Positions 10,958 through 51,900 of a stretch of 64,000 nucleotides of DNA are shown piece after piece. The DNA comes from Odiellus spinosus. Lineage: Eukaryota > Arthropoda > Arachnida > Opiliones > Phalangiidae. Numbering within the stretch: the stretch's first letter is position 1; each line of letters begins with the position of its first letter. The stretch lies in the NCBI GenBank assembly GCA_963920705.1, contig OY987226.1, positions 4,590,501-4,654,500 on the forward strand, read 5' to 3'. The notes beneath the pieces were generated by a model. It was not told the origin of the DNA, ran no database searches, and saw nothing but the letters and a program-made list of their open reading frames with translations. Position numbers and translations under genes: made by a program.

Positions 10958-11439
10958 ACTGCTAAATCTTTGGTTAATCACGCCTCTATAGTCAAAAACT
11001 AAATTTACCCTTTTAATTATTTTTCCGCGTGCACTGGCGTTGATAAAATATAGGAGGCGTTGGTTTAGACACAGAGTTCTGAATATGATCCTCAATATCC
11101 ATTTTTAGTTCATGAAAAAACCCGTAACAGTCTCACTTTAACCCAAGACTCAATTGAAATCTAGTTATAAGGAATAACAAATTCTATAAGATTCAGTCTC
11201 TCGTTATTGTTGAATATCTAAAAATATATATTTCGAATAACTATTCCCAGACTTAAATTTGAAATGCAATTGCGAATAAATAACAATGAATAGAATCTAT
11301 TTATTTCCCTAGACTGTCTCCCCTTCAGTTCGTGAAAAAAATATCTTATTCCCCTGTAAAAATTCGAATAAAACTTGAAACAATTTTTTTTAAAAATTGT
11401 TGCAATGCCCTCTAGCACAGACCTAGTACTTCATAGAAT

Positions 11440-17373: not shown

Positions 17374-17575
17374 CGTATACGTAGTACTATCAGCAAAGGT
17401 TCGGGTAAATATACCGGCAGATTCTGATTCGAGACGCTCTAGCGATGACATTTCGAATTTAGGAGGGAAGATAAAGTAGCCAAGCGCGGCCCGCCTAAAT
17501 TCTGTCCGACTCTCCTGACTCAAAATATCGAGCCAGAAAGGGGTGACGCCTTCTTTGGTGACCATGGACTAATAC
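17374..17575. repeat. Half copy, CAGCAAAGG-family MITE
   Basis: Starts GTAGTACTATCAGCAAAGG and follows the element interior (TACCGGCAGATTCTGATTCG, then CTCCTGACTCAAAATATCG). It lacks the right inverted repeat. An open frame over this stretch (17341-17565, minus) is element sequence, not a gene. Confidence 0.65.
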
Positions 17576-18922: not shown

Positions 18923-20210
18923 GTAAGATTATCAATTTTTTATACTACTCCATCTTTTTGCTTTAAAGGGAGAAAGAAGCCTGTTTTTTAATGATTCTTT
19001 ATCGATAAACTATAACTATTTCTTGTCGAATTCTTATCGACAAGCTCTCGAATTTAATCGCAAGAAATTAAAAAAAAGGTTCCCGAGACTGTCGATCGTT
19101 ACATACGCGTGACGTCGGTTTTACTTTGTATTTCAATGTCCTCCAATAGAATAACAAATGAAATTGACTTTCAAATGAAGAAATATCTTTTAATTTGCTC
19201 GAAAAATTTTTAAATTGGAAAATTCGAACAGAATTCGACCAAATAAACCAAATGAAATAATCTGAATTCAACAAAAGTTAACTCGTTAACCTAAGAGGTG
19301 TAAAATAAAAGATTAATTTTCTTATAATATATTGTTTTTTTTAAAGGGTATGAAAATATTTGTAATTCAGTAAAAATAATTTTTCGATTGAAATTATTTT
19401 TCCATTCAGAACGAAGAAAGCTTTGCCACTAAAAGAATATTGCCAGTTCCTGGAAATCATCGCCAAAAACAAGAAAATGAATATAGAGGACATCAAGCAA
19501 AAGTTGACGGAGTCTGGACCTCCGCAAACTACCAAAACCACGGTAAGGAATTTAAATTTAAAATCATTTATTTTTCATGAGGGCATAAGATTTCTTGATT
19601 TAAAATTTTCTTTATTACATTCATAAATTAAATATTATACAAAAAGAAGCTGTTTTGCTGTGATTTTACTCAAAAGATTTTATTATGAGCGGCCCTCCTA
19701 AATTCCGTCCCTCTCTCCCGACCCAAAATATCTAGGAAGAGTCCAAATCACTCGAACCAGACAGGGGGTGATGACATTTTCCTTGTTTTAAGTGATGGGC
19801 TAGTTACGTCTACCTTGGCCCTTTGCTGATAGTATTGTTAAACTTTTGATATTACAAAAAATTGATAAAGGCAACAGTAACCTAATTTATAATTTTTTAA
19901 GGAAGCTTTGAATTTTATTTTTTTACTGTTTACAAATTCTTTAACCTTGCCCTATCGTATATAAGATAAAAATTTTTTATGGTGAGTGAACTCTTGATTT
20001 AAATAAAGCTCTCCATTTTTCTGACAGTCCGCGACCGCTGCAGGTGCTGTGGCCCGTCTCACCGATCATACTAAATACACCGGTACCCACAAACAACGAT
20101 TCGATGATAGCGGAAAAGGCAAAGGTATAGAAGGCAGGAAAGAAGTAAATTCAGAGTCTGGTTACGTCTCTGGCTACAAAGCCGAAGGTTCGTACGAAGA
20201 AGGACATTAG
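18735..20210 (+). CDS. TPPP: Tubulin polymerization-promoting protein (TPPP/p25-alpha), three coding exons
   Basis: Coding exons 18735-18922, 19410-19542 and 20028-20210 join in frame to 167 residues. Both introns (487 and 485 bp) are GT-AG. The protein starts [20 protein letters not shown]. It carries the p25-alpha signature in the order expected: [20 protein letters not shown] in exon 1, an Ile/Lys-rich helical middle in exon 2 (IEDIKQKL) and the diagnostic C-terminal [17 protein letters not shown] at residues 124-140, then [16 protein letters not shown]. Length is close to the usual 170-190 residues, and the long disordered N-terminus of some homologues is absent. Family members bind tubulin and bundle and stabilise microtubules; the fly homologue ringmaker acts in axons. 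The gene stands alone on this strand. Both introns carry pieces of dispersed MITEs. Confidence 0.95.
19095..19165. repeat. Fragment of the CRE-bearing element in TPPP intron 1
   Basis: ACGCGTGACGTCGGTTTTAC followed by TTTCAATGTCCTCCAATAGA matches the inner part of the arm of the full copy at 46448-46852. The TGACGTC core is at 19110-19116. Confidence 0.65.
19410..19542 (+). CDS. TPPP: TPPP coding exon 2
   Basis: Begins after TTTTTCCATTCAG. One base completes the split Lys codon and 44 codons follow, ending in phase 0 before GTAAGG. Encodes residues 63-107. Confidence 0.93.
19687..19845. repeat. Half copy, CAGCAAAGG-family MITE in TPPP intron 2
   Basis: Carries the right half of the family: CCTAAATTCCGTCCCTCTCT, then GGGGTGATGACATTTT and GGCCCTTTGCTGATAGTATT. 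The left half is missing. Confidence 0.65.
20028..20210 (+). CDS. TPPP: TPPP coding exon 3
   Basis: Begins after CATTTTTCTGACAG and ends with the TAG stop at 20208-20210. Encodes residues 108-167, including the conserved GKGKG stretch. A short ATGA tandem follows the stop near 20244. An AATAAA at about 20811 could serve polyadenylation, but nothing else supports it. Confidence 0.93.
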
Positions 20211-25241: not shown

Positions 25242-25483
25242 TTGTGTATTATTCCAAGTTTTTCAAGAGAATTTTTCCAGGAGCAGTTTTTCAAGAACAG
25301 TTTCCCAAGAGTAGTTTTTCTCAAATATATTTTCTCAAACCTCGATTTTTCTCAAACCTCGATTTTTCTCGAACCTCGATTTTTCTCGAACCTCGATTTT
25401 TCTCAAACCTCGAAAATCTCGATTTTTTTTTTTCCCCCTCTCGATTTTCCCCGTATTTATCATTTTTTTTTTTTTTTTTTTTT
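25242..25483. repeat. Left edge of the composite satellite: CAAACCTCGATTTTTCT repeats
   Basis: Degenerate copies of a 17-bp unit CAAACCTCGATTTTTCT between about 25330 and 25415. They are preceded by looser TTTTTCAAGA repeats and followed by a long T run that leads into the main array. Confidence 0.85.
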
Positions 25484-26475
25484 TTTTTTACAGGGGGTGT
25501 ATTTATGTTTTTTTTTACAGGGGGTGTATTTATGATTTTTTTTACAGGGGGTGTATTTATGATTTTTTTTTTACAGGGGGTGTATTTATGAATTTTTTTT
25601 ACAGGGGGTGTATTTATGATTTTTTTTTACAGGGGGTGTATTTATGATTTTTTTTTTTTTACAGGGGGTGTATTTATCATTTTTTTTTTTTTTACAGGGG
25701 GTGTATTTATCATTTTTTTTACAGGGGGTGTATTTATCATTTTTTTTACAGGGGGTGTATTTATGATTTATTTTTTTTTACAGGGGGTGTATTTATGATT
25801 TATTTTTTTTACAGGGGGTGTATTTATGATTTTTTTTACAGGGGGTGTATTTATGATTTTTTTTACAGGGGGTGTATTTATGATTTTTTTTACAGGGGGT
25901 GTATTTATCATTTTTTTTACAGGGGGTGTATTTATCATTTTTTTTTACAGGGGGTGTATTTATCATTTTTTTTACAGGGGGTGTATTTATCATTTTTTTT
26001 AAAGGGGGTGTATTTATGATTTATTTTTTTTTACAGGGGGTGTATTTATGATTTATTTTTTTTACAGGGGGTGTATTTATGATTTTTTTTTTACAGGGGG
26101 TGTATTTATGATTTTTTTTACAGGGGGTGTATTTATCATTTTTTTTTACAGGGGGTGTATTTATCATTTTTTTTTACAGGGGGTGTATTTATCATTTTTT
26201 ACGGGGCGTGTATTTATCATTTATTTTTTTTACAGGGGGTGTATTTATCATTTATTTTTTATTTACAGTGGGTGTATTTATCATTTATTTTTTTTACAGG
26301 GGGTGTATTTATCATTTATTTTTTTTTACAGGGGGTGTATTTATCATTTATTTTTTTTTACAGGGGGTGTATTTATCATTTATTTTTTTTACAGGGGAAG
26401 TATTTATCATTTATTTTTTTACAGGGGGTGTATTTATCATTTATTTTTATACAGGGGGTGTATTTATCATTTATT

Positions 26476-29400
26476 TTTCCAAATCTAAATTTTCCAAATC
26501 TCAATTTTCCAAATCTCAATTTTCCCAATCTCAATTTTCCCAATCTCAATTTTCCCAATCTCAATTTTCCCAATCTCAATTTTCCCAATCTCAATTTTCC
26601 CAATCTCAATTTTCCCAATCTCAATTTTCCCAATCTCAATTTTCCCAATCTCAATTTTCCATTTATTTATCATTTTTTTTACAAGGGGTGTATTTATCAT
26701 TTATTTTTTTACCTGGGGTGTATTTATTATTTATTTTTTTACAGGGGGTGTATTTATGATTTATTTTTTTTACAGGGGGTGTATTTATGATTTATTTTTT
26801 TTTTACAGGGGGTGTATTTATGATTTTTTTTTTTTTTTACAGGGGGTGTATTTATGATTTTTTTTTTTTACAAGGGGTGAATTTATGAGTTATTTTTTAT
26901 TTACAGTGGGTGTATTTATCATTTATTTTTTTTACAGGGGGTGTATTTATGATTTTTTTACAGGGGGTGTATTTATCATTTTTTTTTACAGGGGGTGTAT
27001 TTATCATTTTTTACGGGGCGTGTATTTATCATTTATTTTTTTTACAGGGGGTGTATTTATCATTTATTTTTTTTACAGGGGGTGTATTTATCATTTATTT
27101 TTTTTACAGGGGGTGTATTTATCATTTATTTTTTTTACAGGGGGTGTATTTATGATTTTTTTACAGGGGGTGTATTTATCATTTTTTTTTACAGGGGGTG
27201 TATTTATCATTTTTTACGGGGCGTGTATTTATCATTTATTTTTTTTACAGGGGGTGTATTTATCATGTATTTTTTTTACAGGGGGTGTATTTATCATTTA
27301 TTTTTTTACAGGGGGTGTATTTATAATTAATTTTTTTACAGGGGGTGTATTTATCATTTATTTTTTTACAGGGGGTGTATTTATCATTTATTTTTACTAA
27401 TCTAAATTTTCCAAATCTAAATTTTCCAAATCTCAATTTTCCAAATCTCAATTTTCCCAATCTCAATTTTCCCAATCTCAATTTTCCCAATCTCAATTTT
27501 CCCAATCTCAATTTTCCCAATCTCAATTTTCCCAATCTCAATTTTCCCAATCTCAATTTTCCCAATCTCAATTTTCCCAATCTCAATTTTCCCAATCTCA
27601 ATTTTCCCAATCTCAATTTTCCCAATCTCAATTTTCCCAATCTCAATTTTCCCAATCTCAATTTTCCCAATCTCAATTTTCCATTTATTTATCATTTTTT
27701 TACAGGGGGTGTATTTATCATTTATTTTTTTACAGGGGGTGTATTTATTATTTATTTTTTTACAGGGGGTGTATTTATGTTTTTTTTTTTTTACAGGGGG
27801 TGTATTTATGAGTTATTTTTTATTTACAGTGGGTGTATTTATCATTTATTTTTTTTTTACAGGGGGTGTATTTACCATTTTTTTACAGGGGATGTATTTA
27901 TCATTTATTTTTTTACAGGGGGTGTTTTTATCATTTTTTTACAGGGGGTGTATTTATCATTTATTTTTTTTTACAGGGGGTGTATTTATCATTTATTTTT
28001 TTTTACAGGGGGTGTATTTATCATTTATTTTTCCAAATCTCAATTTTCCAAATCTCAATTTTCCAAATCTCAATTTTCCAAATCTCAATTTTCCCAATCT
28101 CAATTTTCCCAATCTCAATTTTCCCAATCTCAATTTTCCCAATCTCAATTTTCCCAATCTCAATTTTCCCAATCTCAATTTTCCCAATCTCAATTTTCCC
28201 AATCTCAATTTTCCATTTATTTATCATTTATTTTTTTTTTACAGGGGGTGTATATATGATTTATTTTTTTACAGAGGGTGTATTTATGAGTTATTTTTTA
28301 TTTACAGGGGGTGTATTTATCATTTATTTTTTTTACAGGGGGTGTATTTATCATTTATTTTTTTTTACAGGGGAAGTATTTATCATTTATTTTTTTTACA
28401 GGGGGTGTATTTATCATTTATTTTTTTTTACAGGGGGTGTATTTATCAATTATTTTTTTTTACAGGAGGTGTATTTATGATTTATTTTTTTTTACAGGGG
28501 GTGTATTTATGATTTATTTTTTTTACAGGGGGTGTATTTATGATTTTTTTTTTACAGGGGGTGTATTTATGATTTTTTTTACAGGGGGTGTATTTATCAT
28601 TTTTTTTTACAGGGGGTGTATTTATCATTTTTTTTTACAGGGGGTGTATTTATCATTTTTTACGGGGCGTGTATTTATCATTTATTTTTTTTACAGGGGG
28701 TGTATTTATCATTTATTTTTTATTTACAGTGGGTGTATTTATCATTTATTTTTTTTACAGGGGGTGTATTTATCATTTATTTTTTTTACAGGGGGTGTAT
28801 TTATCATTTATTTTTTTTTACAGGGGGTGTATTTATCATTTATTTTTTTTACAGGGGAAGTATTTATCATTTATTTTTTTACAGGGGGTGTATTTATCAT
28901 TTATTTTTATACAGGGGGTGTATTTATCATTTATTTTTCCAAATCTAAATTTTCCAAATCTCAATTTTCCAAATCTCAATTTTCCCAATCTCAATTTTCC
29001 CAATCTCAATTTTCCCAATCTCAATTTTCCCAATCTCAATTTTCCCAATCTCAATTTTCCCAATCTCAATTTTCCCAATCTCAATTTTCCCAATCTCAAT
29101 TTTCCCAATCTCAATTTTCCATTTATTTATCATTTTTTTTACAAGGGGTGTATTTATCATTTATTTTTTTACAGGGGGTGTATTTATTATTTATTTTTTT
29201 ACAGGGGGTGTATTTATGATTTATTTTTTTTACAGGGGGTGTATTTATGATTTATTTTTTTTTTTACAGGGGGTGTATTTATGATTTATTTTTTTTTTTA
29301 CAGGGGGTGTATTTATGATTTTTTTTTTTACAAGGGGTGAATTTATGAGTTATTTTTTATTTACAGTGGGTGTATTTATCATTTATTTTTTTTACAGGGG

Positions 29401-32400
29401 GTGTATTTATGATTTTTTTACAGGGGGTGTATTTATCATTTTTTTTTACAGGGGGTGTATTTATCATTTTTTACGGGGCGTGTATTTATCATTTATTTTT
29501 TTTACAGGGGGTGTATTTATCATTTATTTTTTTTACAGGGGGTGTATTTATCATTTATTTTTTTTTACAGAGGGTGTATTTATCATTTATTTTTTTTACA
29601 AGGGGTGTATTTATCATTTATTTTTTTACAGGGGGTGTATTTATAATTAATTTTTTTTCAGGGGGTGTATTTATCATTTATTTTTTTACAGGGGGTGTAT
29701 TTATCATTTATTTTTACAAATCTAAATTTTCCAAATCTAAATTTTCCAAATCTCAATTTTCCAAATCTCAATTTTCCCAATCTCAATTTTCCCAATCTCA
29801 ATTTTCCCAATCTCAATTTTCCCAATCTCAATTTTCCCAATCTCAATTTTCCCAATCTCAATTTTCCCAATCTCAATTTTCCCAATCTCAATTTTCCCAA
29901 TCTCAATTTTCCCAATCTCAATTTTCCCAATCTCAATTTTCCCAATCTCAATTTTCCCAATCTCAATTTTCCCAATCTCAATTTTCCCAATCTCAATTTT
30001 CCCAATCTCAATTTTCCCAATCTCAATTTTCCCAATCTCAATTTTCCATTTATTTATCATTTTTTTACAGGGGGTGTATTTATCATTTATTTTTTTACAG
30101 GGGGTGTATTTATTATTTATTTTTTTACAGGGGGTGTATTTATGTTTTTTTTTTTTACAGGGGGTGTATTTATGAGTTATTTTTTATTTACAGTGGGTGT
30201 ATTTATCATTTATTTTTTTTTACAGGGGGTGTATTTACCATTTTTTTACAGGGGATGTATTTATCATTTATTTTTTTACAGGGGGTGTTTTTATCATTTT
30301 TTTACAGGGGGTGTATTTATCATTTATTTTTTTTACAGGGGGTGTATTTATCATTTATTTTTCCAAATCTCAATTTTCCAAATCTCAATTTTCCAAATCT
30401 CAATTTTCCAAATCTCAATTTTCCCAATCTCAATTTTCCCAATCTCAATTTTCCCAATCTCAATTTTCCCAATCTCAATTTTCCCAATCTCAATTTTCCC
30501 AATCTCAATTTTCCATTTATTTATCATTTATTTTTTTTTTACAGGGGGTGTATATATGATTTATTTTTTTACAGAGGGTGTATTTATGAGTTATTTTTTA
30601 TTTACAGGGGGTGTATTTATCATTTATTTTTTTTACAGGGGGTGTATTTATCATTTATTTTTTTTTACAGGGGATGTATTTATCATTTATTTTTTTTTAC
30701 AGGGGGTGTATTTATCATTTATTTTTTTACAGCGGGTGTATTTATCATTTATTTTTTTACAGGGGGTGTATTTATCATTTATTTTTTACAGGGGGTGTAT
30801 TTATCATTTATTTTTTTTTACAAGGGGTGTATTTATCATTTTTTTTACAGGGGGTGTATTTATCATTTATTTTTTTTACAGGGGGTGTATTTATCATTAA
30901 TTTTTTTTTACAGGGGGTGTATTTATCATTTATTTTTTTTACAGGGGGTGTATTTATCATTAATTTTTTTTACAGGGGGTGTATTTATCATTTATTTTTT
31001 TTTACAGGGGGTGTATTTATCAATTATTTTTTTTTACAGGAGGTGTATTTATCATTTATTTTTTTTACAGGAGGTGTATTTATCATTTATTTTTTTACAG
31101 GGGGTGTATTTATCTTTTTTTTTTACAGGGGGTGTATTTATCAATTATTTTTTTTACAGGAGGTGTATTTATCATTTATATTTTTTACAGGAGGTGTATT
31201 TATCATTAATTTTTTTTAAAGGGGGTGTATTTATCATTTTTTTTTTACAGGGGGTGTATTTATCATTTATTTTTTTTACAGGGGGTGTATTTATCATTTA
31301 TTTTTTACAGGGGGAGTATTTATCATTTATTTTTTTACAGGGGGTGTATTTATCATTTATTTTTCCAAATCTCAATTTTCCAAATCTCAATTTTCCAAAT
31401 CTCAATTTTCCAAATCTCAATTTTCCAAATCTCAATTTTCCAAATTTTTCCCAATCTCAATTTTCCCAATCTCAATTTTCCCAATCTCAATTTTCCCAAT
31501 CTCAATTTTCCCAATCTCAATTTTCCCAATCTCAATTTTCCCAATCTCAATTTTCCCAATCTCAATTTTCCCAATCTCAATTTTCCCAATCTCAATTTTC
31601 CCAATCTCAATTTTCCCAATCTCAATTTTCCCAATCTCAATTTTCCATTTATTTATTTTTACAGGGGGTGTATATATGATTTATTTTTTTACAGAGGGTG
31701 TATTTATGATTTATTTTTTTTAATGGGGGTGTATTTATGATTTATTTTTTTTACAGGGGGTGTATTTATGAGTTATTTTTTATTTACAGGGGGTGTATTT
31801 ATCATTTATTTTTTTTACAGGGGATGTATTTATCATTTATTTTTTTTTACAGGGGGTGTATTTATCATTTATTTTTTTACAGTGGGTGTATTTATCATTT
31901 ATTTTTTTACAGGGGGTGTATTTATCATTTATTTTTTACAGGGGGTGTATTTATCATTTATTTTTTTTTACAATTGGTGTATTTATCATTTTTTTTACAG
32001 GGGTGTATTTATCATTTATTTTTTTTACAGGGGGTGTATTTATCATTTATTTTTTTACAGCGGGTGTATTTATCATTTATTTTTTTACAGGGGGTGTATT
32101 TATCATTTATTTTTTACAGGGGGTGTATTTATCATTTATTTTTTTTTACAAGGGGTGTATTTATCATTTTTTTTTACAGGGGGTGTATTTATAATTTTTT
32201 TTTTACAGGGGGTGTATTTATCATTAATTTTTTTACAGTGGGTGTATTTATCATTTATTTTTTTACAGGGGGTGTATTTATCAATTATTTTTTTTACAGG
32301 GGGTGTATTTATGAGTGATTTTTTATTTACAGTGGGTGTATTTATCATTCATTTTTTTACAGGGGGTGTATTTATCATTTTTTTACAGGGGATGTATTTA

Positions 32401-34618
32401 TCATTAATTTTTTTTTACAGGGGGTGTTTTTATCATTTATTTTTTTTACAGGGGGTGTATTTATGAGTTATTTTTTATTTACAGTGGGTGTATTTATCAT
32501 TCATTTTTTTACAGGGGGTGTATTTATCATTTATTTTTTTTACAGGGGGAGTATTTATCATTTATTTTTTTTTACAATAGGTGTATTTATCATTTATTTT
32601 TTTACAGGGGGTGTATTTATCATTTATTTTTTTACAGGGGGTGTATTTATCAATTATTTTTTTACAGGAGGTGTATTTATCATTTATTTTTTTTACAGGA
32701 GGTGTATTTATCATTAATTTTTTTTTACAGGGGGTGTATTTATCATTTATTTTTTTACAGGGGGTGTATTTATCATTTATTTTTTTTACAGGGGGTGTAT
32801 TTATCATTTATTTTTTTACAGGGGGTTTATTTATCATTTATTTTTTTTACAGGGGGTGTATTTATCATTTATTTTTTTTACAAAAATAAATTTTCCAAAT
32901 CTCAATTTTCCCAATCTCAATTTTCCCAATCTCAATTTTCCCAATCTCAATTTTCCCAATCTCAATTTTCCATTTATTTATCATTTATTTTTTTTACAGC
33001 GGGTGTATTTATCATTTAATTTTTTTACAGGGGGTGTATTTATCATTTAATTTTTTTACAGGGGGTGTATTTATGATTTATTTTTTTTACAGGGGGTGTA
33101 TTTATGATTTATTATTTTACAGGGGGTGTATTTATGATTTTTTTTTTTTACAGGGGGTGTATTTATGAGTTATTTTTTATTTACAGTGGGTGTATTTATC
33201 ATTCATTTTTTTACAGGGGGTGTATTTATCATTTTTTTACAGGGGATGTATTTATCATTAATTTTTTTTTACAGGGGGTGTATTTATCATTTATTTTTTT
33301 ACAGGGGGTGTATTTATCATTTATTTCTTTTACAGGGGGTGTATTTATCATTTATTTTTTTACCAGGGGTGTATTTATAATTTTTTTTACAGGGGGTGTA
33401 TTTATCATTTATGTTTTTTACAGGGGGTGTATTTATCATTATTTTTTTTTTACAGGGGGTGTATTTATCATTTATTTTTTTACAGGGGGTGTATTTATCA
33501 TTTATTTTTTTTACAGGGGTGTATTTATCATTTATTTTTTTTACAGGGGGAGTATTTATCATTTATTTTTTTTACAGGGGGTGTATTTATCATTTATTTT
33601 TTTACAGGGGGTGTATTTATCATTTTTTACAGGGGGTGTTTTTATCATTTATTTTTCCAAATCTCAATTTTCCAAATCTCAATTTTCCAAATCTCAATTT
33701 TCCAAATCTCAATTTTCCAAATCTCAATTTTATAAATCTCAATTTTCCAAATCTCAATTTTCCAAATCTTAATTTTCCAAATCTCAATTTTCCATATCTT
33801 AATTTTCCAAATCTCAATTTTCCAAATCTCAATTTTCCAAATCTCAATTTTCCAAATCTCAATTTTCCAAATCTCAATTTTCCCAATCTCAATTTTCCCA
33901 ATCTCAATTTTCCCAATCTCAATTTTCCCAATCTCAATTTTCCATTTATTTATCATTTATTTTTTTTTACAGGGGGTGTATATATGATTTATTTTTTTTA
34001 CAGAGGGTGTATTTATGATTTTTTTTTTTTTACAGGGGGTGTATTTATGATTTATTTTTTTTACAGGGGGTGTATATATGATTTATTTTTTTTACAGGGG
34101 TGTATTTATGAGTTATTTTTTATTTACAGGGGGTGTATTTATCATTTTTTTTACAGGGGGTGTATTTATCATTTATTTTTTTACATGGGATGTATTTATC
34201 ATTTTTTTTTTACAGGGGGTGTATTTATCATTTATTTTTTTACAGCGGGTGTATTTATCATTTATTTTTTTTACAGGGGGTGTATTTATCATTTATTTTT
34301 TTACAAGGGGTGTATTTATCATTTATTTTTTATTACAAGGGGTGTATTTATCATTTTTTTTTTTTTTTACAGGGGGTGTATTTATCATTTTTTTTTTTTT
34401 TTACAGGGGGTGTATTTATCATTTATTTTTTTTACAGGGGGTGTATTTATCAATTATTTTTCCAAATCTCAATTTTCCAAATCTCAATTTTCCAAATCTC
34501 AATTTTCCAAATCTCAATTTTCCAAATCACAATTTTCCAAATCTCAATTTTCCAAATCTCAATTTGCCAATTCTCAATTTTCCCAATCTCAATTTTCCCA
34601 ATCTCAATTTTCCAAATC
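26476..34618 (+). repeat. Interspersed blocks of a 15-bp unit (CAATCTCAATTTTCC)
   Basis: Ten blocks lie inside the main array at about 26476-26662, 27393-27684, 28029-28217, 28936-29122, 29715-30050, 30361-30517, 31364-31650, 32886-32972, 33656-33946 and 34460-34618, with a short eleventh at 36243-36306. Most start with one to several AAATCTCAATTTTCC units (sometimes AAATCTAAATTTTCC), then a longer run of CAATCTCAATTTTCC, and most end in CATTTATTTATCATTT. The order is the same in nearly every block. Confidence 0.92.
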
Positions 34619-35116
34619 TCAAATCTCAAAAAATCTCAAAAAATCTCAAATCTCAAAAAATCTCAAATCTCAAAAAATCTCAAATCTCAAAAAATCTCAA
34701 ATCTCATAAAATCTCAAATCTCAAAAATCTCAAATCTCAAAAATCTCAAATCTCTAAAATCTCAAATCTCTAAAATCTCAAATCTCAAAAATCTCAAATC
34801 TCAAAAATCTCAAATCTCAAAAATCTCAAATCTCCAAAATCTCAAATCTCCAAAATCTCAAATCTCAAAAATCTGAATTTTCCAAAATCTCAAATCTCCA
34901 AAAACTCATATCTCCAAAATCTCAAATCTCCAAAATCTCAAATCTCCAAAATCTCAAATCTCCAAAATTTCAAATCTCCAAAATCTCAAATCTCCAAAAT
35001 CTCAAATCTCCAAAATCTCAAAACTCCTAAATCTCAAATCTCAAAAATCTCAATTCTCAAAAATCTCAAATCTCAAAAATCTCAAATCTCAAAAATCTCA
35101 AATCTCAAAAATCTAA
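34619..35116 (+). repeat. Block of CTCAAATCTCAAAAAT units, copy 1
   Basis: Short units of about 16-17 bp built from AAATCTC, AAAAATCTC and CTCCAAAATCTC. They follow directly on a 15-bp block and share its ATCTCAA core, so they probably arose from it. A shortened near-copy lies at 36307-36680. Confidence 0.9.
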
Positions 35117-36306
35117 TTTATTATTTAATTTTTTTACATGGGGTGTATTTATTATTTATTTTTTTACAGTGGGTGTATTTATTATTTTTTTACAGGGGGT
35201 GTATTTATTATTTTTTTTTTACAGGGGGTGTATTTATTATTTTTTTTTTTTTTTCAGGGGGTGTATTTATTATTTATTTTTTTACAGGGGGTGTATTTAT
35301 TATTTATTTTTTTTACAGGGGGTGTATTTATTATTTTTTTTACAGGGGGTGTATTTATTATTTAATTTTTTTACATGGGGTGTATTTATTATTTATTTTT
35401 TTACAGGGGGTGTATTTATTATTTATTTTTTTACAGGGGGTGTATTTATTATTTTTTTTTACAGGGGGTGTATTGATTATTTTTTTTTACAGGGGGCGTA
35501 TTTATTATTTATTTTTTTACAGGGGGTGAATTTATTATTTTTTTTTTACAGGGGGTGTATTTATTATTTTTTTTTACAGGGGGTGTATTTATCATTTATT
35601 TTTTATTACAAGGGGTGTATTTATCATTTTTTTTTTTTTACAGGGGGTGTATTTATCATTTATTTTTTTTTTACAGGGGTGTATTTATCATTTATTTTTT
35701 TTTACAGGGGGTGTATTTATCAATTATTTTTTTTACAGGAGGTGTATTTATCAATTATTTTTTTTACAGGAGGTGTATTTACCATTTATTTTTTTTACAG
35801 GAGGTGTATTTATCATTTATTTTTTTACAGGGGGTGTATTTATCATTAATTTTTTTTACAGGGGGTGTATTTATCATTTATTTTTTTACAGGGGGAGTAT
35901 TTATTATTTATTTTTTTTTTACAGGGGGTGTATTTATTATTTATTTTTTACAGGGGGTGTATTTATTATTTATTTTTTTTACAGGGGGTATATTTATTAT
36001 TTATTTTTTTTTACAGGGGGTGTATTTATTATTTATTTTTTTACAGGGGGTGTATTTATTATTTATTTTTTTACAGGGGGTGTATTTATTAATTTTTTAC
36101 AGGGGGTGTATTTATTAGTTTATTTTTTTACAGGGGGTGTATTTATTAATTTTTTTTACAGGGGGTGTATTTATTATTTATTTTTTTTACAGGGGGTGTA
36201 TTTATTATTTTTTTTACAGGGGGTGTATTTATCATTTATTTTTCCAAATCTCAATTTTCCAAATCTCAATTTGCCAATTCTCAATTTTCCCAATCTCAAT
36301 TTTCCA

Positions 36307-36680
36307 AATCTCAAATCTCAAAAAATCTCAAAAAATCTCAAATCTCAAAAAATCTCAAATCTCAAAAATCTCGAATCTCAAAAAATCTCAAATCTCAAAT
36401 CTCATAAAATCTCAAATCTCAAATATCTCAAATCTCTAAAATCTCAAATCTCCAAAATCTCAAAAATCTCAAATCTCAAAAATCTGAAATCTCCAAAATC
36501 TCAAATCTCCAAAAACTCATATCTCCAAAATCTCAAATCTCCAAAATCTCAAATCTCCAAAATTTCAAATCTCCAAAATCTCAAATCTCCAAAATCTCAA
36601 ATATCCAAAATCTCAAAACTCCTAAATCTCAAATCTCAAAAATCTCAATTCTCAAAAATCTCAAATCTCAAAAATCTAAT
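36307..36680 (+). repeat. Block of CTCAAATCTCAAAAAT units, copy 2
   Basis: Repeats the order of variants in the first block, including the marker strings CCAAAAACTCATATC, CAAAACTCCTAAATC and CTCAATTCTCAAAAATC. This was a block duplication with internal deletions, not independent growth. Confidence 0.9.
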
Positions 36681-37598
36681 TTATTATTTAATTTTTTTAC
36701 AGTGGGTGTATTTATTATTTATTTTTTTACAGGGGGTGTATTTATTTTTTTTTTTTACAGGGGGTGTATTTATTATTTTTATTTTTTTACAGGGGGTGTA
36801 TTTATTAATTATTTTTTTTACAGGGGGTGTATTTATTATTTATTTTTTACAGGGGGTGTATTTATTATTTTTTTTACAGGGGGTGTATTTATTATTTAAT
36901 TTTTTTACATGGGGTGTATTTATTATTTATTTTTTTACAGGGGGTGTATTTATTATTTATTTTTTTACAGGGGGTGTATTTATTATTTTTTTTTTTTACA
37001 GGGGGTGTATTGATTATTTTTTTTACAGGGGGTGTATTTATTATTTATTTTTTACAGGGGGTGAATTTATTATTTATTTTTTTTACAGGGGGTGTATTTA
37101 TTATTTTTTTTTACAGGGGGTGTATTTATTATTTATTTTTTTACAGGGGGTGTATTTATTATTTATTTTTTTTACAGGGGGTGTATTTATCATCATTTAT
37201 TATTTTTTTTTCAGGGGGTGTATTTATCATTTATTTTTTTTTACAGGGGGTATATTTATTATTTTTTTTACAGGGGGTGTATTTATTATTTATTTTTTTA
37301 CAGGGGGTGTATTTATTATTTATTATTTTTACAGGGGGTGTATTTATCATCTTTTTTTTTTTTTTTCAGGGGGTGTATTTATCATTTATTTTTTTACAGG
37401 GGGTGTATTTATCATTTATTTTTTTTACAGAGGGTGTATTTATTATTTATTTTTTTTTACAGGGGGTGTATTTATTATTTTTTTTACCGGGGTTGTATTT
37501 ATAATTTTTTTTACAGGGGGTGTATTTATTTTTTTTTACAGGGGGTGTATTTATTATTTTTTTTTTTACAGGGGGTGTATTTATTATTTTTTTTTTTT

Positions 37599-38783
37599 TT
37601 CATAAATACACCCTCTGTAATAAAATAAATGATAAATACACCCTATGTAAAAAAAAAATTAATTAACCCCCTGTAAAAAAAATAAATAATAAATACACCC
37701 CCTGTAAAAAAAAAAAATAATAAATACACCCCCTGTAAAAAAAATTGAGATTGGGAAAATTGAGATTGGGAAAATTGAGATTTGGAAAATTGAGATTTGG
37801 AAAATTGAGATTTGGAAAATTGAGATTGGGAAAATTGAGATTGGGAAATTTAAGATTGGGAAAATTGAGATTGGGAAAATTGAGATTGGGAAAAATAAAT
37901 GATAAATACACCCCCTGTAAAAAAAAATGATAAATACACCCCCTGTAAAAAAAATAAATGATAAATTGTAAAAAAAATAAATGATAAATACACCTCCTGT
38001 AAAAAAGATAAATGATAAATACGCCCCCTGTAAAAAAATAAATGATAAATACACCCCCTGTAAAAAAAAATGATAAATACCCCCCTGTAAAAAAAATAAA
38101 TGATAAATACACCCCCTGTAAAATAAATAAATGATAAATACATCCCCTGTAAAAAAATAAATGATAAATACATCCCCTGTAAAAAAATAAATGATAAATA
38201 CACCCCTGTAAAAAAAATAAATGATAAATACAACCCCTGTAAAAAAATAAATGATAAATACACCCCCTGTAAAAAAAAATAAATGATAATTACACCCCCT
38301 GTAAAAATTATTAATGATAAATGTCCCTCCTGTAAAAAAAATAAATGATAAATAAATGGGAAAATTGAGATTGGGAAAATTGAGATTGGGAAAATTGAGA
38401 TTTGGAAATATATGATAAATACACCCCCTGTAAAAAAAATAAATGATAAAAACACCCCCTGTATAAAAAAATAAATGATAAATACACCCCATGTAAAAAA
38501 AAATGATAAATACACCCCCTGTAAAAAAAATAAATGATAAATACACCCCCTGTAAAAAAAAATAAATGATAAATACACCCCCTGTAAAAAAAATAAATGA
38601 TAAATACATCCCCTGTAAAAAAAATTAATGATAAATACACCCCCTGTAAAAAAAAATAAATGATAAATACACCCCCTGTAAAAAAATAAATGATAAATAC
38701 ACCCCCTGTAAAAAAAAATAAATGATAAATACACCCCCTGTAAAAAAATAAATGATAAATACACCCCCTGTAAAAAAAATAAA
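37599..38783 (-). repeat. Inverted continuation of the ACAGGGGGTG array
   Basis: From 37600 the units appear as the reverse complement (GATAAATACACCCCCTGT with A runs). They include inverted 15-bp blocks GATTGGGAAAATTGA at about 37744-37898 and 38358-38408. The switch is abrupt: a forward unit ends in a long T run and the next bases are CATAAATACACCCTCTG. Confidence 0.95.
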
Positions 38784-38784
38784 T

Positions 38785-39253
38785 GGGAAAAATTGAGGTT
38801 GGGAAAAATTGAGGTTGGGGAAAATTGAGGTTGGATAAAATTGAGGTTGGGGAAAATTGAGGTTGGGGAAAATTGAGGTTGGGGAAAATTGAGGTTGGGG
38901 AAAATTGAGGTTGGGGAAAATTGAGGTTGGGGAAAATTGAGGTTGGGGAAAATTGAGGTTGGGGAAAATTGAGGTTGCGGAAAATTGAGGTTGGAGAAAA
39001 TTGAGGTTGGAGAAAATTGAGGTTGGAGAAAATTGTGGTTGGAGAAAGTTGAGGTTGGAGAAAATTGAGGTTGGAGAAAATTGAGATTGGAGAAAATTGA
39101 GGTTGGAGAAAATTGAGGTTGGAGAAAATTGAGGTTGGAGAAAATTGAGGTTGGAGAAAATTGAGGTTGGAGAAAATTGAGGTTGGAGAAAACTGAGGTT
39201 GGGGAAAATTGAGGTTGGGGAAATTGAGGTTGGGGAAAATTGAGGTTGGAGAA
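38785..39253 (-). repeat. 16-bp tandem block (GAGGTTGGGGAAAATT)
   Basis: About 29 copies of a 16-bp unit. GTTGGGG units dominate at the left and GTTGGAG units from about 38990. The unit resembles the inverted 15-bp unit with one base added (GAGGTTGG against GAGATTGG). Confidence 0.92.
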
Positions 39254-42200
39254 GCACGCTTTGAAAATAAAGCACGCTTTGAAAATAAAGCACGCTTTGA
39301 AAATAAAGCACGCTTTGAAAATTGAAAATGAAACACGCTTTGAAAATAGAAAATGAAACACGCTTTGAAAATAGAAAATGAAACACGCTTTGAAAATTGA
39401 AAATAAAACACGCTTTGAAAATTGAAAATAAGACACGCTTTGAAAATTGAAAATATAACACGCTTTGAAAATTGAGAATAAAACACGCTTTGAAAATTGA
39501 AAATAAGACACGCTTTGAAAATTGAAAATAAGACACGCTTTGAAAATTGAAAATAAAACACGCTTTGAAAATTGAAAATAAAACACGCTTTGAAAATTGA
39601 AAATAAAACACGCTTTGAAAATTGAAAATAAAACACGCTTTGAAAATTGAAAATAAAACACGCTTTGAAAATTGAAAATAAAACACGCTTTGAAAATTGA
39701 AAATAAAACACGCTTTGAAAATTGAAAATAAAACACGCTTTGAAAATTGAAAATAAAACACGCTTTGAAAATTGAAAATAAAACACGCTTTGAAAATTGA
39801 AAATAAAACACGCTTTGAAAATTGAAAATAAAACACGCTTTGAAAATTGAAAATAAAACACGCTTTGAAAATTGAAAATAAAACACGCTTTGAAAATTGA
39901 AAATAAAACACGCTTTGAAAATTGAAAATAAAACACGCTTTGAAAATTGAAAATAAAACACGCTTTGAAAATTGAAAATAAAACACGCTTTGAAAATTGA
40001 AAATAAAACACGCTTTGAAAATTGAAAATAAAACACGCTTTGAAAATTGAAAATAAAACACGCTTTGAAAATTGAAAATAAAACACGCTTTGAAAATTGA
40101 AAATAAAACACGCTTTGAAAATTGAAAATAAAACACGCTTTGAAAATTGAAAATAAAACACGCTTTGAAAATTGAAAATAAAACACGCTTTGAAAATTGA
40201 AAATAAAACACGCTTTGAAAATTGAAAATAAAACACGCTTTGAAAATTGAAAATAAAACACGCTTTGAAAATTGAAAATAAAACACGCTTTGAAAATTGA
40301 AAATAAAACACGCTTTGAAAATTGAAAATAAAACACGCTTTGAAAATTGAAAATAAAACACGCTTTGAAAATTGAAAATAAAACACGCTTTGAAAATTGA
40401 AAATAAAACACGCTTTGAAAATTGAAAATAAAACACGCTTTGAAAATTGAAAATAAAACACGCTTTGAAAATTGAAAATAAAACACGCTTTGAAAATTGA
40501 AAATAAAACACGCTTTGAAAATTGAAAATAAAACACGCTTTGAAAATTGAAAATAAAACACGCTTTGAAAATTGAAAATAAAACACGCTTTGAAAATTGA
40601 AAATAAAACACGCTTTGAAAATTGAAAATAAAACACGCTTTGAAAATTGAAAATAAAACACGCTTTGAAAATTGAAAATAAAACACGCTTTGAAAATTGA
40701 AAATAAAACACGCTTTGAAAATTGAAAATAAAACACGCTTTGAAAATTGAAAATAAAACACGCTTTGAAAATTGAAAATAAAACACGCTTTGAAAATTGA
40801 AAATAAAACACGCTTTGAAAATTGAAAATAAAACACGCTTTGAAAATTGAAAATAAAACACGCTTTGAAAATTGAAAATAAAACACGCTTTGAAAATTGA
40901 AAATAAAACACGCTTTGAAAATTGAAAATAAAACACGCTTTGAAAATTGAAAATAAAACACGCTTTGAAAATTGAAAATAAAACACGCTTTGAAAATTGA
41001 AAATAAAACACGCTTTGAAAATTGAAAATAAAACACGCTTTGAAAATTGAAAATAAAACACGCTTTGAAAATTGAAAATAAAACACGCTTTGAAAATTGA
41101 AAATAAAACACGCTTTGAAAATTGAAAATAAAACACGCTTTGAAAATTGAAAATAAAACACGCTTTGAAAATTGAAAATAAAACACGCTTTGAAAATTGA
41201 AAATAAAACACGCTTTGAAAATTGAAAATAAAACACGCTTTGAAAATTGAAAATAAAACACGCTTTGAAAATTGAAAATAAAACACGCTTTGAAAATTGA
41301 AAATAAAACACGCTTTGAAAATTGAAAATAAAACACGCTTTGAAAATTGAAAATAAAACACGCTTTGAAAATTGAAAATAAAACACGCTTTGAAAATTGA
41401 AAATAAAACACGCTTTGAAAATTGAAAATAAAACACGCTTTGAAAATTGAAAATAAAACACGCTTTGAAAATTGAAAATAAAACACGCTTTGAAAATTGA
41501 AAATAAAACACGCTTTGAAAATTGAAAATAAAACACGCTTTGAAAATTGAAAATAAAACACGCTTTGAAAATTGAAAATAAAACACGCTTTGAAAATTGA
41601 AAATAAAACACGCTTTGAAAATTGAAAATAAAACACGCTTTGAAAATTGAAAATAAAACACGCTTTGAAAATTGAAAATAAAACACGCTTTGAAAATTGA
41701 AAATAAAACACGCTTTGAAAATTGAAAATAAAACACGCTTTGAAAATTGAAAATAAAACACGCTTTGAAAATTGAAAATAAAACACGCTTTGAAAATTGA
41801 AAATAAAACACGCTTTGAAAATTGAAAATAAAACACGCTTTGAAAATTGAAAATAAAACACGCTTTGAAAATTGAAAATAAAACACGCTTTGAAAATTGA
41901 AAATAAAACACGCTTTGAAAATTGAAAATAAAACACGCTTTGAAAATTGAAAATAAAACACGCTTTGAAAATTGAAAATAAAACACGCTTTGAAAATTGA
42001 AAATAAAACACGCTTTGAAAATTGAAAATAAAACACGCTTTGAAAATTGAAAATAAAACACGCTTTGAAAATTGAAAATAAAACACGCTTTGAAAATTGA
42101 AAATAAAACACGCTTTGAAAATTGAAAATAAAACACGCTTTGAAAATTGAAAATAAAACACGCTTTGAAAATTGAAAATAAAACACGCTTTGAAAATTGA

Positions 42201-42362
42201 AAATAAAACACGCTTTGAAAATTGAAAATAAAACACGCTTTGAAAATTGAAAATAAAACACGCTTTGAAAATTGAAAAACACGCTTTGAACATAAAACGT
42301 GCGCTTGAAAATAAGTCTCGCTTGAAAATAAAACACACGCTTGAACATGAATCACGCGCTTG
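39254..42362 (-). repeat. 25-bp satellite with a long homogeneous core
   Basis: The unit is CACGCTTTGAAAATTGAAAA plus TAAAA. Shorter and variant units occupy 39254-39533. From 39534 to about 42276 roughly 109 successive units look identical by eye. The right edge decays within 90 bp into TGCGCTTGAAAATAAG-like and CACGCGCTTGAAAAATT-like units. All three minus-strand frames are open, giving frames of 1,237, 1,345 and 1,538 codons. This is expected of a stop-free 25-bp unit that cycles through all three frames, and I do not call a gene. Confidence 0.95.
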
Positions 42363-43011
42363 AAAAATTGTTTTTTGTTAACGCTGAATTGAAATGAAAG
42401 TACCAATTTTAGAGATGAACGCTTAAAATTTTTTTGTTTCCGTTGCCAAAAAAATTCTTGAAACAAGACATTTTTTTTTTTTTTTCTCTTTTTGTGAATT
42501 CAAGGGAATAATGATCAGTTTTCTTTTTCCTTATACTGTGAATAAAATTTTTATTTTTTTTATTTTATTTTCATTCTTTTCTGGCACAAATAATTACAAG
42601 TACGACATCTACATTTTTTTCTACGCATATTGTGTTTATTAGACATTTTTCTCGTATCTTTGTAATATATTTTTTTAAGTTCGATCACTCTCTTAGGTTT
42701 TTTAAGGAGAATCTTCTTGGTGATGTTTTTTGTATTAATTAAATTATAAATTTGGTAAAACTAATTTTTAATTTAATTAAAAATTGGGGTAACGTTTTTA
42801 TTACGCCTGAGTGAATGCGTTAGTATTTTTCAAGAGCAAATTCGGGAAAATTTATAGTGGTGGTTTATGGGAGAGGGCCATATTAATTTTTTGTTTTAGC
42901 TTATTTTTTTTAGCCGATGAAAAATCAACCAATTAGTCTAGGCACTTTAGGTTGTGGTATTAAACAAGGCCTTCATATTTTTGTAATATATTCGCGTGAA
43001 TTTTAATTTTC

Positions 43012-44117: not shown

Positions 44118-45050
44118 AGACACAATTTTTTAATAGTCCTAGGCTTAGTTAAATCGGTTAAACTATTTGGGTTGAAATATTTACTGATACCGAGAGAAGT
44201 TTGGGCCTAAACAGAACCCGAATTTAAACAATAGCCACAGACCTGAGATATCTTTGGGAGATAAATATTTTACGCGTTGAATTATACTTTTTTAAAACGA
44301 AAAATGGGACAATTCATATTTATGGGACGGCATTTTAATGAAAAACACACGTACAAAGGATTAGGATCATATTTTTTTCCGCATTTATTTTTATTTTTTT
44401 TTTTTTGGTATTTCAATTAATTTTTTTATGTATATAATAATTAAAACCAAAATTTGAAAATAATATTTCTAATTATTTTAGTTTTCACTAACTTACGCCA
44501 GATATCTTTTGTGTGAAAAAGATTTGAGTCTTATATATATGTAGATTATTTCCTATTTTTTTTTTTTTTTTTTTACCATTTAAATATTTAAATGAGGTGT
44601 GTAAAATCCACTAAGATTTCTTTATGTTTTTTTTTTTTTAATTTTTTTCTCTCTTTCAAAGTCATGGCAGTAGATTTTTATCACTTCTAAGACAGTTTTG
44701 TGTGTGGTATTTTGTATATTGTTTAAATATTTTTAATAAAACATCTTACCTTATGCCTTGATCTGAATTTTTCTCCTTAAATTCATTTACAGATAATTTT
44801 ATACATTTATTTATATTTTTGTTTATTTTTTTTTTTAGTTTTATAATTAAGGATTAAAATGAAATGTTTTTTTGATATAAAAAGCAATATAATTTTAATT
44901 TAAAATCATATTACGGTATTTTTAAAAACAGAATGGAAGCATAGGGATTATTTAATTGAGTATATAATTAAATTCAATCAAAAATGGGAGTAAAATTAAA
45001 TTTGGAAATAAAAAATCATTTAAAATGTAGCAAAAGTCTATAGCTTTATT

Positions 45051-45380
45051 CCATAGAAGTAAACAACGCCACGTAACTTAATACTATCAGCAAAGATCCG
45101 GGTAAATTTACCGGCAGATTCTGATTCGAGACACTCTAGCGGCCGCAATCGGTGGAAATAGTGAAATCATAAGCCCCCCCCGTCTGCGGAGAAATTTCGG
45201 AGTTGGGAGGGAAGACAATATAGCCAAGAGAGGCCCGTCTAAATTCCGTCCCTCTCTCCCGACTCAAAATATCATGGAAGAGTCCAAATCACTCTAGCCA
45301 CACAGGGGTGATGACTTTTTTGTCTAATTTTAAGTGATGGGCTAGTAGGTTTACCTGACCCTTTGCTGATAGTATTAAGC
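45051..45380. mobile_element. Long-TIR MITE, CAGCAAAGG family, copy 2
   Basis: Starts CCATAGAAGTAAACAACGCC, runs through CTTAATACTATCAGCAAAG and ends CTTTGCTGATAGTATTAAGC. The interior (TACCGGCAGATTCTGATTCG and CGTCCCTCTCTCCCGACTC) is in the opposite orientation to the copy at 9942-10301. Confidence 0.72.
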
Positions 45381-46447
45381 TCTTTTCGCCACTTATAACT
45401 GTAAATTTAACTCATTTAAAAACATTTAAGATCTAATTTTGATCTCATACCCACTTAATTTCATTTGGTTTTGGATAGTTTTACGAAAATTAAAAATTAC
45501 GCTTCGTGTTAATTTGCCTAAATTTTGAAGATTAAAATCTACCCGTACACTTTCTATGCCTGAAAAAACAAAGTTTTAAAATTAAAACGATGCTGTAAAT
45601 TGACCCCCAAAATTTTGTGAACTGTTAACGCGAATATATTAACGTGTCGACATTATACCAGACCGGTAACCTTCGAACTACTTTCGTTAAAGAGGAGAGG
45701 AACAGAGATCAGTTGCTTTTGACATGATAGCAGTAAGAACTAGACTAAAACCGTGGTATGAATTGTTTGCTTCGTTTCAATGTCAAAGAGCGTAAAAATT
45801 GAGTATTTTAAATTTAAATAATATTCGAAATTTTATGATTAGAGAAATTTAAATCAGTAGATTTGTATCTTTCACTGGATTAAGATATAAAATAATTAAT
45901 TAAAGGACGTAATATAACTAGGATAAATGTTAATTGTGTTTATTATAACAAATTGATACTTTTTAATTATTAAATATGTTACTGCAGATCGAAGGTTTAT
46001 TAACTTAAATCTTTGTTGTTAGAAAGATGATTCCAAATATGACTACTGTTAAAAATACTTCAATTTCATCCTCTTCAACATTAAAAAACAAAAATAAAAA
46101 CTTTGCAAGTTCTTTAAAAATGAGTATAAGCGTGTGACAGGCATGTTCAAGTCTTGTTCAAGAATGTAAATTATCTGCGTGGGTGTAAAAATGTTCTTCC
46201 ATGCGATACAAAGGTATTCAGGGCGTTCTTAAAAACGATGTATATTAAAATTTGGCAAGCATTTTGCAAACGGTTCAAGCGCGCCCTCTGCCGAACGAAC
46301 GTTTCTTATTACGTAGATCTTCAGTGGGATAATAATATTTCCGAAAATGGAAATATAAAAATGATATGCCGGTCCAAATATTGTGATGATTTTCATTTTT
46401 TTAAATAGTATATATAGAAAAAGAGTATTCAAGTGAGCAGTGATGGC

Positions 46448-48924: not shown

Positions 48925-51900
48925 CTAATATAAAGGAAGGGTTACAAAAACCAAAATTTTAACATATAGCAAACCCGCTATAAGTATCTTACAAAGTAAC
49001 TGGGAAATTTAAAAGTAAAATTGTAAAAATCTTGTATAATAAAACTAACTTTTTTTAACTAATTTTAGGTCCCAAAACCTTTTCACTTGGTTTTTGTACT
49101 TTTTAAGCGTCACATATATATTAACAAGATGGCCAAGCCCATGAAATAACTACACCTCTCTCGTTCAAGTTTAAATAAGACGCTTTGGATTAGATTGAGC
49201 TGGCTCAACCGACATTCAATGATTATATAAATAAATTAAAAATCTCTTGAATGGACTTACATTGGCGTTGCCGAGGTTCTTTGAAGGGTGGTTTTTCGGG
49301 TCCAGGTTTCGCTCCCAAGGGAGTACCAGCCGCGTCTATGGGAATTCTGAGAGGAGTGATATCGTACGCGTTCATGTCGTCTTCGCCACCACCTTCGTCG
49401 TCGTAGCTGATAATGTTTTCTCGAACGTCATCATCTACGTCTCCGTGTCCGTATTTCTGGTCTGGGCGACGGTTGCGCGTATACGCCACAATCACCAACA
49501 CCAAGACTTGAAAAGAAACGGGACAAAAATCGCGTCCATTAGAGATAACCTTTAACCTTAAGAAAACTTAAATTTAACGAGAAAACAATATGTTCTCGGA
49601 AGTAAATAATTATCCAAGAAAGAAGTGTTCCAGCAAAATTTTCGGAATGATTTAAAATTTCTTAAATCTAGCTGTCCCTACGGTGTGTAAGTGAACCATG
49701 ATTGGTCATTGTAATCCAAGATTTTTGATGACGGTACAGCAAAAGAAAATGATATAACTTCTTTATAAGATAATTACTATACACTTTTCATATAGTTATT
49801 ACAGAAATACTATTTGTTAAATCAAGCAACAATAGACAAATAATTGTAGAATGCGTGTAACAAGAATCTGACCAACTTTCCCAGTATTTTCTTCCTTTCG
49901 TACTGTATGGGTCTTTTTCCATACAGTGCGAAATAATTCTCCTTGTTTTGGAGTCGTTCTGAACGATAATAGTAGTAATTCAGAAATGAGTGAATGACAA
50001 GGCTCCCAAAAACAGAGGTCAAAATAAGCAACCCTTGTAATTTAATAATTTGGCTGCGATTTGAATTATCGTGGCGCAAATTTATCAATCTTTTCAGTAG
50101 TTGGTCAGACTCTTGTTTATAATAACTGTCTACAGCGTCTCCCCTTTATCTCCTTTTGGTAGTATTACCTAGCAGTCCGTCACCATGCTATGTTAGTTAA
50201 TAATACTAACAATACCTTTAAATCATGCTGGTTAGTTCCCAAAATTATTGCAGTTAAATATACCAAAAGCCATTAAAAATGGATTTAGCATATGTTATAT
50301 AAATTCTTACTTAAAACTGCAATAATGCAAGCTATAATAATGAGCAAGGCGTCAGTGCTCAAATTAACGGAGGCCTTATGGTAAATGCCACCGATATTTT
50401 CGTTGCTACAAGTGCAATTATTGCAGACGAAACCGTCTTGGCAGTGGCATTGGTAACCCAATCCGTGCATCAGGTTAACGCACTTGGCACCGTCACCACA
50501 ATGCAAGCTCAAACATTCGTCGTCATCGTCGCATCTCAGACGATCTTCCGAAGGAGCGAATCCCATTGGACAGCTACGGTTGTGACAATCGCATATACGC
50601 GTGTGTGGTGAGAGTGTCGCGTAGAGTAGGTTTGTATGAACACAAAAGTAAAACGAAAAACAAAAAGAAAACAAAAAAACAAAATAATTTTAGCGATGGC
50701 GACTGCCCAAATAATTTTTAAGTGATTTCGGAATTTGGTTAGAAACGTTTTCGCCGAGCCTTTAGCTTAAACAAAGTACATCCTAAGTCGCCACCGCCGT
50801 CCGCCCAGAAGACATCAAACTAATACGGTAGCGTTTAAACTTACTGAGTATATTAAGGAGGCAGACTAAAATGGCGGCGAGTGCGGCCATGCTAAGACGC
50901 ATAACCTTCAGTTGCGGTAGAGCTCCACAATTCTCTCCGCTATAACCGTCGGGACACTTGCAAAAGTATCCCTCTCCGTTATCACGATTGACGCAAGTAC
51001 CGCCATTTAGGCAGGGCTCGCTCAAACACTCGTTCGCGTCAGTGCAATTCTTGCCGTCGTCCGTTACGGCAAAACCAGGCTGACACCTGATAGTTCGAGT
51101 TAGAAAGAATTCAAGCGAGCCAATAGGAAAAAACCATAGCGAGGAACAATGCAAGGTTAGGGAATGATAAAAAAAGAGAGTTTAGTTCAGATGCTAAAAC
51201 CAACACCAAAAGTTATTAGATTTACAGTACTAAAAGTATTTGAAAAAAAGAGTTTTATTTGCGAAACAACTAGAAGTGTAAAATAAATCTCACTAATGGA
51301 TTCCTTTCGTTATAAGCTTTCAAACGAATACAAATAATCTATATTTTTAACTAAGTGTAAAATTTGTAAACTGATTGTGTAAATCTGGAGGCAACCTGAA
51401 GTGTAAAATAAGACTCACTAGTGAATTCCTTTCAATATAAGCTTTCAAACGAGTACAAACAATCTATATTTTGAACGAAATGTAAAATTTGAAAACTTAT
51501 TGTGTAAATTTACACTTCACATGTGTAAATGTGAGTAACATGATAGTGTGAGTAATGAAACGAAAGCGCTTAAGCTAACTATTATAATGCAATAACTAGT
51601 TCCATTGTTAGAAACGTTTGTTAGACAATTAGACCAAAATAGATTAAAAATCCAATACTTTTCGTAGGGTTTCAAGAATGGTTATTTAAAATCCAACCAT
51701 TTGAAATAGAAGTTATATAGAGGTAATTAACCAGACTAAATCGCGACGCGATAAAATGTCGGCTAGCAGAGATCCCACTTGTAAAACCTAATTTCTAGTC
51801 AAATTAATGGATAATTATCTATTAAAAAAAATCTGTTAAATTAAAACTACGAAATTCTAGCCTATAAATTTACGGCTTAATTGAGCTAAGTTTTAAAAGT

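Follow-up and report, generated by a model that had tools for sequence, protein, structure and literature searches.

A block of about 17 kb within the window (the whole 64,000-nucleotide stretch of DNA that was analysed) is built from interleaved short tandem repeats and runs in the order B–(A with B cassettes)–inversion–(A′ with B′ cassettes)–B′–C, where A, B and C denote families of repeat unit. The block has been duplicated at two scales, and the orientation of its arrays flips at ~37,600, a feature absent from an earlier sequence-only reading of this DNA. We regard it as a local composite satellite in intergenic arthropod DNA that grew by slippage, unequal exchange and inversion, a reading to which we assign a probability of roughly two in three. 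Although unusually layered, the block looks like repeat DNA that arose through ordinary duplication and inversion, and not like an element of a new kind.

Repeat families and their arrangement

Tandem Repeats Finder returned 61 rows for the window, 38 of which lie at 25,257–42,366. Together with family labelling, these rows confirm that the composite, interleaved ~17-kb repeat block noted in the sequence-only reading is real, and every unit named there was found where it had been placed. The limits of the tandem structure are corrected from 25,242–42,362 to a start at ~25,257 and an end at ~42,366. The description of the block as uninterrupted is nearly accurate, except that unassigned stretches of up to 62 bp occur between 25,328 and 42,294; the two outermost edges, of ~70 bp each, carry no family label. 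Two small arrays had not been listed before, at 25,257–25,320 (14/28 bp) and 39,252–39,322 (18 bp). The parts of the block are as follows.

25,257–25,327, + strand: left edge L1, degenerate 14/28-bp AGTTTTTCAAGAG repeats (Tandem Repeats Finder)
25,328–25,414, + strand: L2, 17-bp TTTTCTCAAACCTCGAT array of the B family (Tandem Repeats Finder, family labels)
25,483–37,600, + strand: left arm, A family (ACAGGGGGTGTATTTAT plus T-run) with 11 embedded B arrays (293 units, segment table)
26,475–28,934, + strand: first higher-order unit, copy 1, three B cassettes plus A (alignment to copy 2)
28,935–31,359, + strand: first higher-order unit, copy 2 (alignment; cassette types in matching order)
34,457–36,238, + strand: second higher-order unit, copy 1, holding the 16-bp CTCAAATCTC derivative at 34,623–35,115 (alignment)
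36,239–37,600, + strand: second higher-order unit, copy 2, holding the 16-bp derivative at 36,315–36,678 (alignment)
37,585–37,601, no strand: inversion centre, 17-base loop between inverted A units (sequence reading, DNA fold)
37,601–38,784, − strand: right arm, inverted A family with two embedded B arrays at 37,744–37,894 and 38,364–38,409 (Tandem Repeats Finder, labels)
38,785–39,255, − strand: R16, 16-bp GAGGTTGGGGAAAATT array, inverted B family (Tandem Repeats Finder, alignments)
39,256–42,294, − strand: C family, 18-bp array followed by 25-bp CACGCTTTG array (Tandem Repeats Finder, unit comparison)
42,295–42,366, − strand: right edge, degenerate C-like (Tandem Repeats Finder)

Known RNAs were sought with Rfam (0 matches at the gathering threshold) and ARAGORN (0). 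Long ORFs of up to 1549 aa were not treated as genes, being a consequence of the repeat periods and low complexity.

Unit alignments support about three families, A, B and C, so that the earlier count of at least five was overstated; five or more independent families were rejected, as a single family is the best reading of the 15-, 16- and 17-bp units. In a comparison of 28 pairs of units, each against 300 letter-shuffles, no shuffle was as good as the real pair for B15–R16, L2–R16 and C25–C18 (0/300 each), while A showed no relation to B15, R16 and L2 (119/300, 100/300 and 65/300). The pairs A–C25 (21/300), B15–L2 (12/300) and B15–F16 (4/300) are each weak alone, 28 pairs having been tested. 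L2 is placed in the B family because of its likeness to R16, and F16 mainly because of a direct transition at ~34,611. The pairs R16–C25 and B15–C25 gave low scores of 18, reached by 0/300 and 1/300 shuffles, which may reflect a distant B–C link. By the same comparison, the block does not consist of one monomer throughout, as a single-family satellite would.

The A unit, of ~30 bp, has the form ACAGGGGGTGTATTTAT followed by C, G or T, then A, then a T-run of variable length that is often broken up as TTTATTTTT. A relaxed search allowing edits located 293 ACAGGGGGTG units on the + strand, with 281 of the 292 spacings at 25–38 bp and 261 of these at 27–34 bp, and a further 30 units on the − strand within the block. 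Complete A units on the + strand number 281, of which 138 are distinct. The base after TATTTAT varies by region, being C in 126/172 A units at 27–35 kb, T in 46/65 at 35–37.6 kb and C in 21/27 in the inverted arm, which fits local homogenisation. The 17-base A core occurs nowhere in 46.8 kb of flank at up to three substitutions and once at four; with insertions and deletions allowed, one flank match was found, at 7,583. A nearby dispersed repeat holding ACAGGGGGTG at 19,761 was considered as a source and rejected, since the likeness stops beyond those 10 bases. One 22-base pattern gave 0 copies in IMG/VR, a search that may pass over records from the genome to which the window belongs. Four unit strings, as typed words, were not met in the literature, a weak negative since units are rarely printed as a single word. 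As a separate observation, most A units (25,483–38,784) carry T(6+)ACAGG, a candidate by sequence for a motif resembling a strong 3′ splice site; T6ACAGG occurs 229 times on the + strand of the block and 25 times on the −, and the looser T6NCAGG is found on neither flank strand.

The B family comprises 15–17-bp units of the type TTTTC(C/T)CAA(T/C)CTC with variants, and covers the 17-mer (25,330–25,413 by Tandem Repeats Finder), the 15-mer, the 16-bp CTCAAATCTC unit F16 (34,623–35,115 and 36,315–36,678) and the 16-bp GAGGTTGGGG unit (38,784–39,253). The recurrence of 15-bp blocks inside the A array, remarked upon in the sequence-only reading, is borne out by 13 embedded 15-mer arrays, 11 in the left arm and two in the right. 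The derivation of F16 from the 15-bp unit, also suggested there, is supported by the transition at ~34,611, the unit comparison alone being weak (4/300). The cassettes share their junctions and internal order. In the left arm, the right junction is TTTTCCATTTATTTAT in nine of 11 cassettes, and the remaining two pass into the 16-bp derivative. Polarity is seen in ten of the 13 embedded arrays, with AAATCTC-type copies at the start and CCCAATCTC-type copies at the end; b13, among these ten, has only three copies, and the exceptions are B10, B11 and b12. When three 15-mer variants are coded x, a and C, three cassettes repeat in order, xaaC9, xaaC15, aaaaC8 being followed by xaaC9, xaaC18, aaaaC6. 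A minor family is thus embedded with recurrent transition zones; as all copies lie in one block, they are perhaps duplicates of few events. Neither the exact 15-mers nor CACGCTTTG have a match in the window flanks.

In the C family, 119 of the 25-mer units were compared; exact copies number 110, and 109 of them follow one another without a break. This run of identical units suggests recent amplification, or else assembly smoothing.

Higher-order duplication and the inversion

Within the left arm, a 2.4-kb unit with three cassettes has been duplicated. Its copies, 26,475–28,934 and 28,935–31,359, align with 2223 matches and 68 mismatches, an identity of 97.0% once the 303 gap columns (22 events) are set aside. 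Next to the inversion, the corresponding identity of 34,457–36,238 and 36,239–37,600 is 95.9%, from 1290 matches and 55 mismatches; gaps there take up 454 columns and fall into 27 events.

Family A forms direct subarrays up to 37,600 (+ strand) and inverted subarrays up to 38,784 (− strand), and in successive 1-kb bins between 35 and 39 kb the AT skew is −0.386, −0.185, −0.174 and +0.379. Folded as DNA, the 301-base centre (37,450–37,750) yields a hairpin of −101.2 kcal/mol against −36.2 for shuffles (sd 4.3; z −15.2, 0/100 as good). The identity of the mirrored arms outside gaps is 84% at 100 bp, 84% at 200, 73% at 400, 83% at 800 and 86% at 1150 bp, with 14, 62, 64, 152 and 564 gap columns, respectively. 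The inverted symmetry extends to the B arrays outside the two arms. When L2 (25,330–25,413) is aligned to the outermost 100 bases of 38,785–39,253 in reverse complement, the score is 72 (shuffles 19.9, sd 4.3; 0/200 as good), and the whole left edge, 25,242–25,480, aligns with R16 with a score of 100 (shuffles 25.2, sd 4.5; 0/200).

The arms differ greatly in length, with ~12 kb on the left and 1.2–1.7 kb on the right. Within the left arm, the right arm has its longest inverted match at 32,528–33,447 (86.9% by BLAST, 90.4% outside gaps), and some shorter matches elsewhere are closer, up to 89.7% by BLAST among the 25 matches listed. Between 27.5 and 32.5 kb, 40–42% of right-arm 28-mers are found in each 1-kb bin of the left arm, compared with 32% in 35.5–36.5 kb and 27% in 36.5–37.5 kb. 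Since the inverted arm mostly carries the C variant of the A unit and the adjoining 35–37.6 kb the T variant, the inverted piece may have originated at a point further to the left; alternatively, the T-variant units next to it may have expanded once the inversion was in place.

Formation of the block and alternative explanations

From this organization we infer a local origin, a sequence of events and the recombination mechanisms behind them. The short units of A (~30 bp) and B (15–17 bp) would first have multiplied by replication slippage and small tandem duplication, after which a B array would have become enclosed in an A array, once or a few times. An A–B–A piece would then have been duplicated through unequal exchange to give the multi-kilobase higher-order units, one end would have inverted to form the long dyad, and the third unit, C, would have been amplified recently on the right side. 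The common junctions and the polarity of the cassettes suggest that B entered A in few founding events and was then duplicated along with it, as opposed to having been inserted many times independently. Against the local satellite stand the three of 13 cassettes in which polarity is broken, the differing right junction of b12 and the unbroken run of 109 perfect copies, which could partly reflect assembly; the block may also belong to a mobile or genome-wide family.

An unlikely alternative is that the block is the remnant of an expanded foldback-type transposon, in which long tandem-unit TIRs face each other near 37,600 and have since expanded to satellite-like arrays, in the manner described for Tetris. 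The inverted order B–A–A′–B′ fits this idea, and Tetris is described, in the portion of its report available to us, as a foldback-like element whose inverted repeats are internally repetitive and have expanded into satellite arrays (PMC4079207). However, the outer termini are not homologous: the left edge (25,242–25,480) shows no homology above chance with the right edge (84/200 shuffles reach the score) or with the start of array C (159/200), and the inner L2/R16 pair, although homologous, is without a sharp outer end. Among possible target-site duplications none is convincing: the longest exact words are GTTTTT (6 bp) by the outer ends and AAATA (5 bp) by those of L2/R16, both short and simple, at ends that are poorly defined. 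The arms are also unequal, and no transposase was recognized by Pfam among the 17 ORFs submitted out of 94 listed, none of which lies inside the block.

It is very unlikely that assembly created the unusual structure, with chimeric or misjoined reads giving rise to the inversion or interleaving, or gap filling to the perfect 25-mer run. The 109 perfect 25-mers in a row speak for such an account, but the cassette copy numbers vary, and the mirrored arms bear different unit variants and are only 73–86% alike outside gaps over the five lengths from 100 to 1150 bp. This divergence led us to judge a fold-back read artefact unlikely, because such a read would give near-identical arms at the centre. 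Least probable of all is a functional hairpin locus, whether transcribed across 37,600 into long dsRNA that yields small RNAs or forming a DNA cruciform with a role in chromatin: the strong folding of the centre and the hypothesis, in the part of the Tribolium madens report seen, that macro-dyads form large hairpins (PMC13081366) speak for it, but such folding is expected of any inverted repeat and the flanks hold no target (A core at up to three substitutions, exact 15-mers or CACGCTTTG).

The surrounding DNA and related satellites

An arthropod N-cadherin (CadN) gene lies 6.3 kb from the block; it occupies the − strand, beginning at 48,665 in window coordinates and reaching 62,030 or beyond. 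Pfam identified the cadherin tail (PF01049, 9e-33), laminin G and, in two pieces, the DE-cadherin Ig-like domain (PF24811). An exon within 50,783–51,181 encodes an EGF-like domain (5.9e-9, Pfam), and a second exon within 50,285–50,689 had no Pfam match; by eye, both have a membrane-spanning stretch at the end and equal phase before GTAAG. An alternative exon pair, ME-18a/b, is reported in arthropod N-cadherin, as far as the available part of the paper describes it (PMC2655722), and the two putative alternative membrane exons are in line with a pair of this type. A 125-bp tandem duplication (88%) at 51,273–51,509 lies directly upstream of an alternative N-cadherin exon.

Other repeats occur in the window. 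A separate 32-bp satellite at 14,056–15,312 (39 copies, 97% match) looks by eye unrelated to the block. A ~336-bp dispersed repeat has inverted copies at 989–1,322 and 7,476–7,811 (92.9%), with two ORFs across it that have no Pfam match. Another dispersed repeat has four copies, at 45,031–45,381, 9,972–10,321, 17,352–17,532 and 19,687–19,836, with pieces 78–88% alike, and a 94-bp palindrome at 10,873–10,966 is 88% self-complementary.

The block is a compact record of composite satellite formation, with junctions, polarity, duplication and inversion all within 17 kb, a length covered by one long read. Should the block recur or vary among individuals, it would be a good site for the direct measurement of satellite growth; taken as a single locus, it is a neat example of an ordinary kind.

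Three known systems bear comparison, as far as the available parts of their reports describe them. Tetris is the nearest foldback case that we met, and the likeness of the block to Tetris and its TIR-220 satellite lies in inverted arms of tandem repeats that are able to expand in a satellite-like manner (PMC4079207). In Drosophila virilis, Tetris has defined flanking domains, target-site duplications of 8–10 bp and ~220-bp repeats, none of which was found in this block (PMC4079207). Satellite–microsatellite composites, such as TmSat4 with (AC)n and those of Penaeus vannamei (mentioned in PMC13081366), likewise have two tandem families of unlike period alternating within one array; in contrast, the second component here is a 15-bp minisatellite that is polar inside, and the block is inverted.

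The nearest organization that we met, as an analogy, is that of TmSat1/TmSat2 in T. madens, and with this case on record the earlier statement that no named satellite has such an architecture was too strong. The text of that report seen describes cassettes of a minor satellite inside a major one, conserved transition zones and macro-dyad inversion, in multi-megabase regions from which 5764 TmSat2 arrays, with a monomer of 704 bp, were analysed (PMC13081366). In both systems, cassettes of a minor family interrupt a major one at recurrent transition zones, copy number varies within the cassettes, and a change of orientation gives a multi-kilobase dyad (PMC13081366). Unlike the beetle satellites, the present units are of 15–31 bp, in one known block of 17 kb with a gene 6.3 kb away, and the likeness, judged from that partial account, is one of form, at a shorter repeat length. 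It is a tentative and rather doubtful proposition that the beetle-type plan of cassettes and inversion also arises at the minisatellite scale in gene-bearing arthropod DNA, here as polar 15-bp cassettes with fixed entry and exit, set in a 30-bp satellite and folded as a dyad. Were unrelated loci to show the plan as well, satellites in general could be said to adopt it, perhaps under selection, and the fixed junctions would act as sites of amplification or inversion.
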